NCBI RefSeq assembly: GCF_004363655.1 | Contig: NZ_SNZH01000014.1 | Location: forward strand, 1-64,000 | From: Tahibacter aquaticus | GTDB taxonomy: Bacteria; Pseudomonadota; Gammaproteobacteria; Xanthomonadales; Rhodanobacteraceae | Length of the DNA: 64,000 nucleotides | Direction: 5' to 3' | Shown: positions 29,501 through 35,360 of the stretch, one piece after another | How positions within the stretch are numbered: position 1 is the stretch's first letter | How the letters are laid out: the number at the start of each line of letters is the position of its first letter | Made by a program: the position numbers and the translations under genes | The notes under the pieces: model-generated | Told to the model about the DNA's origin: nothing | The model's input: the letters and a program-made list of their open reading frames with translations, nothing else | The model's database searches: none

Positions 29501-30238
29501 TCAATGCAAGGCGTGGCCGTGCACTGCGTCGGCGATCTGACGCTGCTGCAACAGACGCACCTGGCGGCCGCGCACGGCGATGACGCCGTCGTCCTGCAGC
29601 TTGGTAAAACTGCGGCTGACGGTTTCTATGACCAGGCCGAGATAGCTGCCGATGTCTTCCCGTGTCATCGGCAGAGCGAACGCGCTGCCGTCCTGGCCCA
29701 GCGTCTCGAAGCGCTGCGACAGGCTATGCAGGAACAGCATCACGCGGTCGTTGGCCTGGCGCCGGCTCATCATTTCCAGATGGTCCTGGTCGCGTCCCAT
29801 GCTGCGGCCGATCACGCGCAGCAGCTGGCGCTGCAGTCCCGGCACCTGCGCGGCAACGTGATGCAATTCCTCCAGCGGTACTTCGCAGACCCGGGCATTT
29901 TCCAGCGCGATGGCATCGCAGCGATGCTGGCCGTGGCCTAGCGCGTCCAGTCCGATCAGTTCGCCCGGCAGATGGAAGCCGATGACCTGCTGCTCGCCAT
30001 CGGCGCTGCAGGCTACGGTCTTGAACGAGCCCTCGCGTGCAACGTAGATACGCGCGGCGCCGCTGCCGACGCGAAACAGATGTTCGCCGCGCGCAACCGG
30101 CTTGCGCCGCTTCACCACGCGATCCAGCCGCTCCACATCGCTGGCAACGATGCCGGCAGGCAGGCATAGCTGGCGCAGCGAACAATTGGCGCAATTGCGC
30201 CGCAGGGTTTCCAGATCGACGACGGGGGCTGTTTCCAT
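29501..30238 (-). CDS. fnr: Fnr/Anr-type oxygen-responsive regulator
   Basis: A 245-residue Crp/Fnr-family activator. It keeps the N-terminal Fe-S cysteines C16, C19 and C25 (CANCSLRQLC) and the fourth, C118 (NARVCEVPLEEL), so it should sense oxygen by a 4Fe-4S cluster. The cNMP-binding-like core and the dimer helix (VIGRSMGRDQDHLEMM) follow. The HTH contains MTREDIGSYLGLVIETVSRSF, with the E-x2-SR contact residues of Fnr, which fits the TTGAT-type site near azurin. It is convergent with the cco operon. Confidence 0.93.
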   Translation of the reverse strand: METAPVVDLETLRRNCANCSLRQLCLPAGIVASDVERLDRVVKRRKPVARGEHLFRVGSGAARIYVAREGSFKTVACSADGEQQVIGFHLPGELIGLDALGHGQHRCDAIALENARVCEVPLEELHHVAAQVPGLQRQLLRVIGRSMGRDQDHLEMMSRRQANDRVMLFLHSLSQRFETLGQDGSAFALPMTREDIGSYLGLVIETVSRSFTKLQDDGVIAVRGRQVRLLQQRQIADAVHGHALH

Positions 30239-30334
30239 GCGGCGAGCATAGTGGGGCGTATCTGCCGGCGGGCTGGCTGCGACGAAATGTCGTAGGAGGA
30301 CTTTGGTCGATTCTGGTGAGTAGTCAGGCTGGTT

Positions 30335-30419
30335 GGTTTACGTCCACCGACGTCTCTCCGCCAGACAGCAAAAAGGGGCCGTTGGGCCCCTTCTCGCTGT
30401 CTGGCGGAGAGAGTGGGAT
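30335..30419. repeat. 85-bp direct repeat, copy 1 (tRNA-Ser 3'-end module)
   Basis: Identical to 30518-30602 over 85 bp. In tRNA orientation it begins with the last 18 nt of the tRNA (30402-30419, from the T arm to CCA) and continues through the terminator hairpin and the inverted copy of the tRNA end. The distance between copies is 183 bp. Confidence 0.9.
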
Positions 30420-30517
30420 ATGTTCGGCCCATCCCTGGGCCTCACCCCTCGCGCGTTGCGCGAGGGGCCAGCCTGCGGCTGTCTTGATTCGCTCCCGGCG
30501 AATCAATCGAACCGGTG

Positions 30518-30602
30518 GGTTTACGTCCACCGACGTCTCTCCGCCAGACAGCAAAAAGGGGCCGTTGGGCCCCTTCTCGCTGTCTGGCGGAGAGAGTGGG
30601 AT
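30518..30602. repeat. 85-bp direct repeat, copy 2 (contains tRNA-Ser 3' end)
   Basis: Identical to 30335-30419. Positions 30585-30602 are the 3' end of the functional tRNA-Ser gene. Inside it, 17-nt inverted arms (30536-30552 and 30579-30595) flank the terminator, so the tRNA acceptor strand plus CCA is repeated in inverted orientation just past the terminator. Confidence 0.9.
30553..30575 (-). terminator. Terminator of tRNA-Ser
   Basis: On the minus strand, an 8-bp stem aaggggcc/ggcccctt (arms 30568-30575 and 30556-30563) with a 4-nt loop runs into five T (30553-30557). It lies 10 nt past the encoded CCA. An identical hairpin lies 183 bp further on (30370-30392). Confidence 0.85.
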
Positions 30603-30674
30603 TCGAACCCACGGTGGGTATAAGCCCACGGCAGTTTTCAAGACTGCTGCCTTAAACCGCTCGGCCATCTCTCC
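30585..30674 (-). tRNA. serT: tRNA-Ser (anticodon UGA)
   Basis: 90 nt including an encoded CCA (30585-30587) and discriminator G (30588). Acceptor stem GGAGAGA/TCTCTCC is perfect. The D arm is TGGCCGAGCGGTTTAAGGCA, the anticodon loop is CT-TGA-AA closed by gcagt/actgc, the long variable arm is that of a class II tRNA (GTGGGCTTATACCCAC), and the T loop is GGTTCGAATCC. It decodes UCA and other UCN codons. Confidence 0.97.
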
Positions 30675-30692
30675 GAAGTTTTATTCAACGAA

Positions 30693-30721
30693 ATCAAACA
30701 GTGACTCTGAGTTAGTTGCAA
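30693..30721 (-). promoter_or_regulatory. Likely promoter of tRNA-Ser
   Basis: On the minus strand, TTGCAA (30716-30721), 17 bp, TTTGAT (30693-30698); the tRNA 5' end follows 18 nt after the -10 element. Spacing is right, but each hexamer matches the consensus at only four of six positions. Confidence 0.5.
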
Positions 30722-30879
30722 TCTTGAGACTATAGCCGCGAAGCATAGCGAATCCCGGCGCGGAGCTCCACGAGGACTGCGGGGAAATGCTCAGGCAGCG
30801 GTGTAAATTGCAACCGTACAGATTGTTTTGGCGCGAGTGCTGACGTAGTTTGCAGGGGCTGCAAATGGGGAGTAGGGAT

Positions 30880-31652: not shown

Positions 31653-34600
31653 TTACGGCGTGGACTCGTCGTCCTTGGCTTCGCTGACGGGTTTGTCGTC
31701 AGCACTGGCCGCGGGAGGCGTTCGCAGGGCGGTGACTACGGCCTGACGCACGCTTTGGCCGGCCGGCGTTTCGCTGCGCGGTTCGGGCATGCCCAGGGAC
31801 AGCTGGGCAGTGGCGGTTGTCGGCTTGTCGCTGGTGCTTTCGCTGGAACGCGCGGTACTGCTAGCAGCACCCGGGATCGGTGCGGAGCGGGCCGGGCCCG
31901 GTGCTACCGGCGTTTTCGACGCGATCGCAGCGCTGCCCGGCGGTGGCGGCGTTACCGCGGCCGGCGGCGGCAGTATCGCGCTGGGTGGAGTGACGGGGAT
32001 CGGTGCAGTGCGCTGCGGAGCCGGTGCACTCGGCGCAGCAGCAATCGGCGCCGGCTTGGCCGGTGCGATGGCCGTGGCTTGTACCGGAGCGACGGAAGCA
32101 GCAGGCGTGGTGACAGGCGTCGCGGGGATCGGTGCCGAAGCGATCGGTGCGGTTGCTGCAGTAACCGGAGCCGAAGCCACCGGAGCCGAAGCCGCCGGAG
32201 CCGAAGCCACCGGAGCCGAAGCCACCGGAGCCGAAGCCACCGGAGCCGAAGCCACCGGAGCCGAAGCCACCGGAGCCGAAGCCACCGGAGCCGAAGCCAC
32301 CGGAGCCGAAGCCACCGGAGCCGAAGCCACCGGAGCCGAAGCCACCGGAGCCGAAGCCACCGGAGCCGAAGCCACCGGAGCCGAAGCTGCCGGAGCCGAA
32401 GCTGCCGGAGCCGAAGCTGCCGGAGCCGAAGCTGCCGGAGCCGAAGCTGCCGGCTTGTCCACTTCTACGCTTTTCGCTGCACTTTCTACTGCGGTTGCGG
32501 CGGCTGGAGTGCTGGCCGCTGCAGGATCTTCCGACCGGGCCTGCGGTGCCACGGGCGAAACGGCTGCGGAGGCTACGGCGGCGATGCCGTTGCTGTCGGC
32601 AGCTGCCGTAGACGGTACGGTTTCATGCACGGCCTGTTCGTCGCGTACGGCTTTTTCACGCGGTTCGCGGACTTCACGACCTTCGCGCGGTTCGCGGCCT
32701 TCACGCGGCGCACGGCCTTCGCGCGGTTCCCGTACTTCGCGGGGCTCGCGCGGTTCGCGGGGCTCACGTACTTCGCGAGGTTCGCGCGGTTCGCGCACTT
32801 CCCGCGGTTCGCGGGCTTCGCGCGGTTTGTTGCTTTCTGCATTCGTCGCGTTGGCTACAACGCCGTCGCTGCCTTCGCCTTCGCCCTCTTCGTCGTCGAA
32901 GTCGGCGTCGGTCGAACCGTCGGCCTGCTCGGCACCGCCTTCGTTGCGGCGGCGGCGGCGGCCACCGCGGCGTCCGCGGCGGCGACGTCCGCCTTCGCGG
33001 CCGCTGTCGTCAGCGGCAATGCCCGGAGCGGCGTCGCCATTCTCGACCGCTTCACCGGCAGCGGCCGCAACGGCGGCTTCGGCCAGCTTGGCTGCTTCCT
33101 TGGCTTCGGCGTTCAGTGCGCTGGGCGGTGCCGGCGTACGCGTATCGGGACGGCCTTCAACCGCTGTACGCGCTTCCACGGGCTTGGCTGCGTCGGTGCG
33201 CGGCTCGACGGGCTTACTCTCGGCACGGGCCTCGCCCTGGCGCTGCGTGTTCGGATTGGCGCGGTTTTCCTGCGGCGCCCGCTGCTCCTGCGGCGGGCGC
33301 TTTTCCTGGCGTTCCTGCTTGTCCGGGCGTTCGCCCTTGGGCTGCTGGCCCTGGGCTGCGGCCTGGCGCTGTTCCTTGTCCGGACGTGGCTCCTTGTCCT
33401 GGCGCTGCGACTGGCCGGCCTTGTTCTGCGGCTGGCCCTGGGCTTCGCCACGGGCGGGCTTGGCATCGCGCGGCGCATCGCCGCGACCGCTGCGCTGTTC
33501 GCTGCGGCCGCCACGCTGGTCGCGGCCGCCACGGCCACCCCGCTGGTCGCGGTCATTGCCGCGCGGCGGCAGCGGGCGCTGTGCCGGCTTGATCGGCGCG
33601 GTCACGACCGGTTCGCTGCGCGGAGCCGGGGCTTCGCCCGTGAACATGGCCAGCATGCGGGCAAAGAAGCCTTGCTTGGGGGCCGTCGTGCGCGGGCTGG
33701 CAACCAGCGGTGCCGTTGCGACAGGGGCGGCAACTTCGTCGCTTTCCGGTCGCAGCGGTGCGGGGCTGGCCGGTACGACGCGGCTGACCGCGGGGCGTTC
33801 CGGTTCTTCGCTGGGCTGCGCGACCTGCGGCGGCGGGGTGACCACGATCGGGGTGAGGCGGTCGTAGCTCGGCCGTGGCGCGTCGCCGATGTCGGCGCTC
33901 TTGATGCGCTGGATTTCCAGGTGCGGCGTTTCCAGCTTTTCGTCGGCGACGATGATCACCGCCACGTCATGGCGCTGTTCGATTTCGCTGACCTGGCGGC
34001 GCTTTTCGTTGAGCAGGAAGTTGGCGACGTCGGACGGCGCCTGCACCAGCACCTGGCCGGTGTTGTCCTTCATCGCGTGTTCCTCGACCAGGCGCAGGGC
34101 CGACAGGGACAGCGATTCGATGCTGCGGATGCGGCCGTGGCCGGTGCAGCGCGGGCAGACGATCTGGGTCGACTCGCCCAGGCTGGGACGCAGGCGCTGG
34201 CGCGACATTTCCATCAGGCCGAAGCGCGAGATGCGGCCGAGCTGCACGCGGGCGCGGTCGAGCTTGAGCGCGTCTTTCAGCGTTTCCTCGACTTCGCGCT
34301 GGTGGCGCGGGCTGTCCATGTCGATGAAGTCGATCACGATCAGGCCGCCGGCATCGCGGATGCGCAGCTGGCGCGCGATCTCGATGGCCGCTTCGCGGTT
34401 GGTGTTGAACGCGGTTTCCTCGATGTCGCCGCCCTTGGTCGCCTTGGCCGAATTGATGTCGATGGCCGTCAGTGCTTCGGTCTGGTCGATCACGATGGAG
34501 CCGCCCGAAGGCAGCCGCACGGTGCGCTCGAACGCGTTCTCGATCTGGGTTTCGATCTGGAAGCGCGAGAACAGCGGGGTGGTGTCCTTGTACAGCTTGA

Positions 34601-35360
34601 GCTTGCGCAGGTTGTTCGGCATGACCTGCTGGACGAAGTCGCGCGCGTCCTGGAACAGGTCTTCGTGATCGATGAGGATCTCGCCGACGTCATTGCGCAG
34701 GTAGTCGCGCAGCGCGCGGATGATGAGCTTGGATTCCTGGTAGATCAGGAACGGACTGGAGCGCGAGGTGGCGGCTTCGGAAATCGCCTTCCACAGCTGC
34801 AGCAGGTAGTCCAGATCCCATTGCAGTTCTTCCGCGTCGCGGCCCATGCCGGCCGTGCGGATGATCAGGCCCATGTCGTCGGGGCAGTTGAGGTGGTCCA
34901 TGACCTCCTTGAGGTTGGCCCGGTCCTCGCCTTCGATGCGGCGCGAGACGCCGCCGGCCCGCGGGTTGTTCGGCATCAGCACCATGTAGCGGCCGGCCAG
35001 GGAGATGAACGTGGTCAGGGCAGCGCCCTTGTTGCCGCGTTCTTCCTTCTCGACCTGGACGACGATCTCCTGGCCTTCCTTGATCAGCTCGCGGATGCCG
35101 GCGCGGTTGTGGTCGACGCCCGGAGTGAAGTATTCGCGGGCAACTTCCTTCAGGGGAAGGAAGCCGTGGCGCTCGCCGCCGTATTCGACGAAGCAGGCTT
35201 CCAGCGAGGGCTCGACCCGGGTGATGCGGCCCTTGTAGATGTTGGCCTTTTTCTGTTCCTTGGACGGGATTTCGATATCGAGGTCGAACAGGTTCTGGCC
35301 GTCCACGATGGCCACACGCAACTCTTCACGCTGAGTCGCGTTGATCAACATGCGTTTCAT
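31653..35360 (-). CDS. rne: Ribonuclease E with long repeat-rich C-terminal region
   Basis: A 1235-residue endoribonuclease, the core of the RNA degradosome; it also processes rRNA and tRNA. The N-terminal catalytic half follows E. coli closely: S1 domain near 35-120, catalytic Asp in AIDINSAK (about 303) and VIDFIDMD (about 346), and the zinc-link CPRCTGHG near 404. The C-terminal half is disordered. It has a basic stretch (about 590-700, rich in RGGRDQRGG and QRQ), an Arg/Glu/Pro repeat zone ([11 protein letters not shown], about 843-901) and 19 tandem [10 protein letters not shown] pentapeptides near 970-1065. The divergent rluC gene and long leader match the E. coli arrangement. Confidence 0.95.
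32167..32451. repeat. 19 tandem 15-bp units inside rne
   Basis: 285 bp made of 19 uninterrupted 15-bp units. On the plus strand the unit is ggagccgaagccacc; one unit has gccgcc and the last five have gctgcc at the end. In RNase E they encode pentapeptides of Ala, Ser, Ala, Pro and Val/Ala. Array length is likely to vary between strains by slippage. Confidence 0.95.

Follow-up and report, generated by a model that had tools for sequence, protein, structure and literature searches.

A tRNA-linked repeat behind a serine tRNA gene of Tahibacter aquaticus, probably built around a mobile palindromic element

We analysed a window of 64,000 nt from Tahibacter aquaticus (positions 1 to 64,000 of NZ_SNZH01000014.1), in which the gene of tRNA-Ser(UGA) is followed by a second copy of its own 3' end. 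Sequence comparison makes it quite probable that this locus is a tRNA-linked repeat (TLR), in which a mobile palindromic element occupies the T-loop of the duplicated tRNA 3' end. The recognition of the 87-nt spacer between the repeat copies as a member of a family of four-hairpin cores is new, as is a TLR in this group of bacteria. The results offer a testable origin of TLRs, as mobile palindromic elements with empty and filled sites, and they connect tRNA- and rRNA-linked repeats, palindromic elements inside proteins and the CsrA-binding small RNA of the rrnB terminator region. Our queries of the open-access literature returned no link between TLRs and in-frame mobile elements; the term 'tRNA-linked repeat' lay outside these queries and an earlier description may exist.

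Results

All features of the locus lie on the minus strand. The intact tRNA-Ser(UGA) occupies 30585-30674 (ARAGORN; Rfam tRNA model, 61.1 bits), and repeat analysis places two direct repeats of 89 nt, 99% identical and spaced by 183 nt, at its 3' end. The proximal copy (30514-30602) comprises the last 18 nt of the tRNA itself (30585-30602), the trailer, a terminator-like hairpin and then the trailer and the tRNA 3' end once more in inverted orientation, and the distal copy (30331-30419) comprises a copy of the last 18 nt (30402-30419), the trailer and a second terminator-like hairpin. In the tRNA sense both copies open with the same 18 nt, ATCCCACTCTCTCCGCCA, which form the end of the tRNA; GACAGC follows, and then a hairpin that is rich in G+C and has TTTTT (30553-30573 and 30370-30390). 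Around each hairpin, inverted-repeat analysis identified a quasi-palindrome (30536-30595 proximal, 30353-30412 distal) with arms of 28 nt that are 93% complementary and whose outer 17 nt, TCTCTCCGCCAGACAGC, repeat the tRNA end and trailer in reverse. The folding energy of the 272-nt repeat locus is -194.6 kcal/mol, whereas shuffled sequences average -105.8 (sd 5.6; z -16). The repeat structure at this tRNA is real and not the product of chance.

The initial annotation had already recognized much of this plan. Its period of 183 and its identity of 18 nt with the tRNA end stand, while its repeats of 85 bp measure 89 nt, its array is one of direct repeats in two copies rather than a long one, and the 17-nt inverted arms that copy the tRNA end backwards are the outer part of arms of 28 nt. 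The terminators that it placed behind the tRNA ends are so labelled by inspection, the consensus terminator scan having made no call at the sense hairpins of the window. Open reading frames of up to 232 codons cross the tRNA and the repeats on both strands (30037-30735) and are probably spurious.

The 87 nt between the repeat copies, absent from that first description, turned out to be the informative part of the locus. This core (30420-30506, from the covariance models R1 and R2 and the predicted fold) lies between GGTTCGA and ATCCCAC, i.e., between a second copy of the 5' half of the T-loop (GGTTCGA, 30507-30513), which in the consensus structure pairs with GAAC at the 3' end of the core, and the distal repeat. 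It folds into four hairpins: H1 (30484-30506, loop CGGGA), H2 (30469-30481), H3 (30444-30468) and H4 (30426-30441, loop AGGGAT). The module was first seen in relatives fetched by DNA similarity. We built R1 from eight copies and R2 from 133 copies, all from Lysobacterales, which are the R1 matches in 80 fetched regions; these regions are a chosen subset of the places with R1 matches, and one scan of the fetched stretches took in 60 of 120. The core of the window scores 103.6 bits with R1 (at 30414-30513) and 90.2 bits with R2.

The alignment of the family argues for a conserved structure. All 32 stem pairs of the core have changes on both sides, and 92.3% of the paired cells are complementary, against 69.2% in shuffled and 33-43% in slid alignments, figures that lean toward the core structure because the alignment was fitted to the model. 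The stems vary in sequence, whereas GGA in the loops of H1 (CNGGA) and H4 (CANGGATG) is 82-91% conserved per position; H1 and H4 of the window carry the GGA in hairpin loops that characterizes CsrA titrators of the CsrB/RsmZ type. The end columns of the core read GA-C and GA(A/G)(C/T), and by eye many cores have a GA-rich internal loop in H4. Cores are also poorer in stop codons than their own shuffles (4.63 of six frames open, against 3.44), which fits residence in genes and proves nothing.

R1 finds a single copy in the genome of the window and no second one among the 150 of 3681 first-look candidates that were scored. In the set of relatives, 39 of 61 genomes have R1 matches, that of the window included; one genome of our collection, Dyella tabacisoli (G009, NZ_KZ857185.1; Lysobacterales), belongs to the same family, Rhodanobacteraceae, as the window. 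The initial annotation had proposed a comparison of copy number among relatives, and presence and number do vary: R1 finds copies in two of the seven congeners (G001 and G007) and none in the other five. R2 matches occur in 103 of 274 genomes of the class sample and in 59 of 299 of the phylum sample, the genome of the window being counted in both. The phylum-wide positives include 16 genomes of the window's class (its own among them) and 43 outside, 38 of which belong to one heavily sampled family. Copy numbers in these two samples are lower bounds, because at most 16 candidates were scored per genome, and counts are biased by R1 and R2 having been built from copies with GGA loops. With 150 candidates scored in each (E 0.001), some genomes have many matches: at least 65 in G305, 42 in G195, 26 in G030, 21 in G184 and 13 in G141.

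Many cores sit beside tRNA genes. In the 80 regions, 92 of the 133 R1 matches are within 600 nt of a tRNA, 90 of them on the tRNA strand and two on the opposite one; this bias may reflect selection on RNA rather than on the target sequence. The nearest tRNAs are those of Ser (four anticodons), Gln, Tyr, Arg, Gly, Phe and Pro, and the core lies downstream of the tRNA in 67 cases and upstream in 25. The initial annotation, which spoke of a different tRNA in a distant group, understated the case, since these 67 of the 133 matches, up to 600 nt downstream, involve tRNAs for Ser, Gln, Tyr and Arg. When the core is on the same strand and less than 300 nt downstream of the tRNA, the last 17 nt of the local tRNA follow it at 80% identity or more in 30 of 58 cases, against 46 of 1662 control comparisons with tRNAs of another amino acid. 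The inverted arm resembles the local tRNA at this level less often than the direct copy does (13 of 58, control 4 of 1662). In G050 the core is also found in copies of the anticodon loop. Class-wide, 15 of the 29 best loci have a tRNA within 600 nt, and five of the others are incomplete stretches in which the position of the core was not placed. T-loop sites are favoured by both models, because the training copies were flanked by GGTTCGA and AATCC.

At the orthologous locus, a tRNA-Ser beside the response-regulator gene, G004 and G006 have no unit. G007 has a pair of units there, both upstream of the tRNA, and their cores share 87-88% identity with the core of the window, where a single unit lies downstream. 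Hence, the presence, place and number of units vary within the genus. A tRNA intron was considered and dropped, because the 3' half of the acceptor is not properly present in the tRNA copies that are interrupted in G007, and excision would therefore not restore a tRNA.

Away from tRNAs, some cores by eye sit in other palindromes. Others are inside MITEs, which allow a comparison of filled and empty sites. A MITE of G181 with ends CTAGCCCGGATATTGCACCAAGG has many copies with and without the core (L298-L304, L314-L343): among 30 loci, seven carry it and 18 have the uninterrupted GTCCTGA(A/G)ATCG or a close variant, the remaining five not being displayed. The insertion adds a net 72 nt, with no visible target duplication. 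A second MITE-like repeat, in G305 (TTAACGTGAAAGTCGCGAAGCACG...), contains the core in the majority of the displayed sites (L346-L358), and bare tandem arrays of cores occur with periods of 72 and about 68 nt. In three genomes (L070, L083, L089) the core interrupts a duplicated stretch at what is apparently the same non-RNA site; we take this stretch to resemble the start of an MBL-fold gene.

Other copies lie within protein genes. A BREX locus of G195 (L294, G195:C1:1264000-1283500; PglZ, BrxHI, PglXI and BrxC by PADLOC) has 12 R2 matches in 19.5 kb. Nine of them are in the genes of PglZ, BrxHI and BrxC, where three fall at predicted ends of genes and six in the interior; five are in sense and four in antisense, and all are in frame and free of stops; the PglX gene of the locus has none. 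These insertions were judged by open frames and profile breaks rather than by comparison with intact homologous DNA, and the searches of PDB, Pfam and PADLOC with the G195 proteins served only to locate such breaks. In most cases a profile alignment is interrupted where a core lies. The best stretch of BrxHI stops at residue 639 (core at 635-665), that of PglZ begins at 272 (core at 246-275), the DUF6079 stretch stops at 968 (core at 963-992), and the second RapA match begins at 663. An exception is the best PADLOC model of BrxC, which spans 56-1320 continuously, with 34 more residues than profile positions. NuoG of the same genome (L344, G195:C1:3570300-3571400) has six tandem repeats of 72 nt, the last one partial, in frame before the Fer2_4 domain, so that its N-terminal extension consists of 24-residue repeats derived from tandem cores. 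An open frame of 137 codons with a core in G184 had no Pfam match.

Two other accounts of these sites were dropped. Integron attC sites do not fit, because the clustered cores of G195 and G184 lie on both strands and partly inside genes; their border motifs are also in the wrong order relative to the attC consensus. Pairing of the loop with the target (GGAU with AUCC) does not fit either, as the loops are unchanged at targets without AUCC, e.g., L071.

The initial annotation had compared the locus with the tyrT operon and rtT RNA of Escherichia coli, and this comparison was borne out: the shared plan is that of the E. coli TLRs (PMC8144298), and R2 matches the core of the window, RrB and, weakly, RttR. 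According to this source, TLRs were first described in 1978 in E. coli, which has 22 of them at ten loci, each with a copy of 18-19 bp of the gene's 3' end, and a function is known only for RrA, RrB and RrF; earlier work cited there is that of Egan and Landy 1978, Bosl and Kersten 1991 and 1994, and Rudd 1999. The unit of the window shares two features of this class, namely 18 nt of identity with the 3' end of the upstream tRNA and, by R2, a core related to those of E. coli. We ran R2 with filters off on 41.6 kb of selected stretches of E. coli K-12. The top match is rrB (59.7 bits, E 2.4e-10), over the full length of the model. The tyrT units follow with 32.4 (RttR), 29.3, 25.9 and 22.4 bits, the units behind tRNA-Lys with 26.0, 25.2, 24.2 and 22.9, and those behind tRNA-Arg with 22.9, 18.8 and 13.9, over an apparent background of three matches at 12.6 bits. 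The matches other than rrB are weak, and the GGTTCGA and AATCC borders add to their scores. With R1 alone, three of the tyrT units score 21.9, 19.8 and 17.0 bits.

The Rfam model of RtT (RF00391, gathering threshold 45 bits) has no match in the window, either at gathering or at E values up to 10. Among related arrays from seven sources its best score is 44.1 bits, below gathering, at a tRNA-Tyr unit of G022 (L084), followed by G030 (L103; 39.3 and 38.4), G184 (L362; 38.8), G036 (L116; 36.2 twice and 33.0) and Rheinheimera (L154; 30.1), with no match in L079 and L087. For rrB, a search of Rfam at E 0.1 gave no match to a family of its own kind.

The layout of the locus is closest to that of RrA, RrB and RrF: gene 3' end, terminator, structured core with GGA in two loops, 18-nt copy of the 3' end, and terminator. 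It differs from RrB by the gene involved, tRNA-Ser instead of 5S rRNA, and by long stretches that surround each terminator-like hairpin and repeat the trailer and tRNA end in inverted form. Furthermore, PMC8144298 reports RrB as conserved within Enterobacteriales by BLAST, whereas the core described here extends to other orders and classes of the phylum. RtT/RttR resembles the locus in its period (178 in E. coli, 183 here), its GGTTCGA ... AATCC borders and its hairpins GCCGCAGGC and CCCGAAGGG, but by eye its E. coli cores have neither of the GGA loops. The consensus scan calls no sense-strand terminator in the tyrT units, and the same scan misses those of the window. Other reports describe RtT as carrying a tandem GA motif (PMC7657543) and an RtT-annotated RNA as upregulated at low temperature in Thioalkalivibrio (PMC8092127); where Salmonella genomes were compared, rtT RNA is listed among the variable-number repeats, with a unit of 175 bp (PMC2658671).

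By description, the palindromic elements of Rickettsia are like the core in being short palindromes in frame in unrelated genes. They are about 150 bp long and form ten families (PMC10969869), in contrast to the four hairpins and 70-90 nt or so of the core, and the in-frame habit holds for the cores of G195, whereas the copy of the window adjoins a tRNA. The GTAG/CGTC REPs are also palindromic and sometimes within ORFs, but measure 20-40 bp and have a GTAG or CGTC tag at one end (PMC3733652), and the ends of the core have neither tag.

Discussion

Our results suggest that an 87-nt element of four hairpins came to lie in the T-loop of a duplicated tRNA-Ser 3' end. Such a duplication would keep the functional tRNA intact, with the last 18 nt of the tRNA and the terminator copied behind the element, and the tRNA context could supply transcription and processing signals to some copies. 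We infer that the copy of the window arose by movement, and the order of events given here is conjectural. Movement at the DNA level is argued by the cores found in MITEs, palindromes and genes in both orientations. The persistence of the family requires no tRNA-specific task, because its members are also found in other palindromes, MITEs and coding sequences. A Y1 transposase is a candidate for the mobilising enzyme, being enriched in genomes with the core (80 of 103, against 106 of 171 without it; p 0.008) though not always found (23 of the 103 core-positive genomes have no match). Against this reading, the single copy in the genome of the window and the lack of copies in five of seven congeners give no sign of recent mobility in this lineage.

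Simpler histories of the locus seem far less plausible. A plain tandem duplication of the tRNA 3' end, with a spacer that is palindromic by chance, would account for two copies only and for the failure to find a second core among the 150 of 3681 candidates scored in the genome. Chance is contradicted by the relatives of this spacer in 103 of 274 genomes of the class, by its strong covariation and by its place between GGTTCGA and AATCC at many tRNAs, and we give this reading almost no credit. Many attB sites also yield direct repeats from a tRNA 3' end that break in the T-loop. The locus could therefore be the scar of an integrative element, the alternative named by the initial annotation, given that its direct repeats are the last 18 nt of the tRNA with the break in the T-loop. 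Yet cores with similar ends also occur at places remote from tRNAs, such as MITEs, palindromes and genes, and the orthologous tRNA of two congeners has no unit. None of the 16 phage-integrase-family matches of the genome is on the contig of the window, the three flanking genes tested against Pfam encode a CRP-type regulator, a response regulator with a LuxR-type domain and RNase E, and among relatives no island was seen at L008, L009 and L012, where the tRNA was viewed with some 1.5 kb to its left and right. An att-site scar is thus very improbable.

A different question is whether the core acts as RNA, e.g., as a decoy that binds CsrA by its GGA loops once transcribed. The conservation of these loops on variable stems points in this direction, and so does the dual-terminator layout common to the locus and RrB. 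According to PMC8144298, RrA, RrB and RrF lie between T1 and T2 of rrnA, rrnB and rrnD, are processed from read-through products and bind Hfq and CsrA; RrB, the 59.7-bit match of R2, binds CsrA in vitro, and its mutant with three GGA changed gave no shift in the range tested. CsrA action is thus supported for RrB of E. coli, and the copy of the window might act likewise. Since a terminator-like hairpin precedes the core, any RNA from it, such as the released small RNA that the initial annotation held plausible, would need read-through, as reported for RrB in that source, and processing would presumably follow. Against this role, four of the nine copies in BREX genes are antisense, so that the mRNA would carry TCC loops, the RttR cores of E. 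coli lack GGA loops by eye, and two congeners have no unit at all. In PMC8144298, moreover, a predictor of the CsrB/C family gives scores under 0.01 to the 19 TLRs that belong to tRNA operons of E. coli, and deletion of rrA, rrB and rrF had modest effects. Our counts are also biased, because the models were built from copies with GGA loops. On balance we think it unlikely that the core of the window works through CsrA.

A broader reading goes beyond this locus, and we advance it tentatively, as a possibility that we doubt more than we trust. The TLRs of E. coli, RttR and RrB included, might be the tRNA- and rRNA-resident copies of a phylum-wide mobile family of four-hairpin elements, whose insertion would duplicate no target sequence and would often take place at GA^A in a palindrome loop, but also in frame within genes. 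The conserved GGA loops would then make the transcribed copies portable CsrA decoys, to which the host tRNA or rRNA gene gives a promoter, terminators and a processing site.

The window has two further features of note. Its matches to the Rfam families sX4 and MH_s15 are below gathering and were set aside, MH_s15 mostly matching the terminator palindrome; the consensus of sX4 (RF02223) contains a tRNA-Ser-like sequence and gives below-threshold matches at tRNA-Ser and tRNA-Tyr genes. Finally, the RNase E gene (31653-35360, minus strand) has a long repeat encoded in its C-terminal region.
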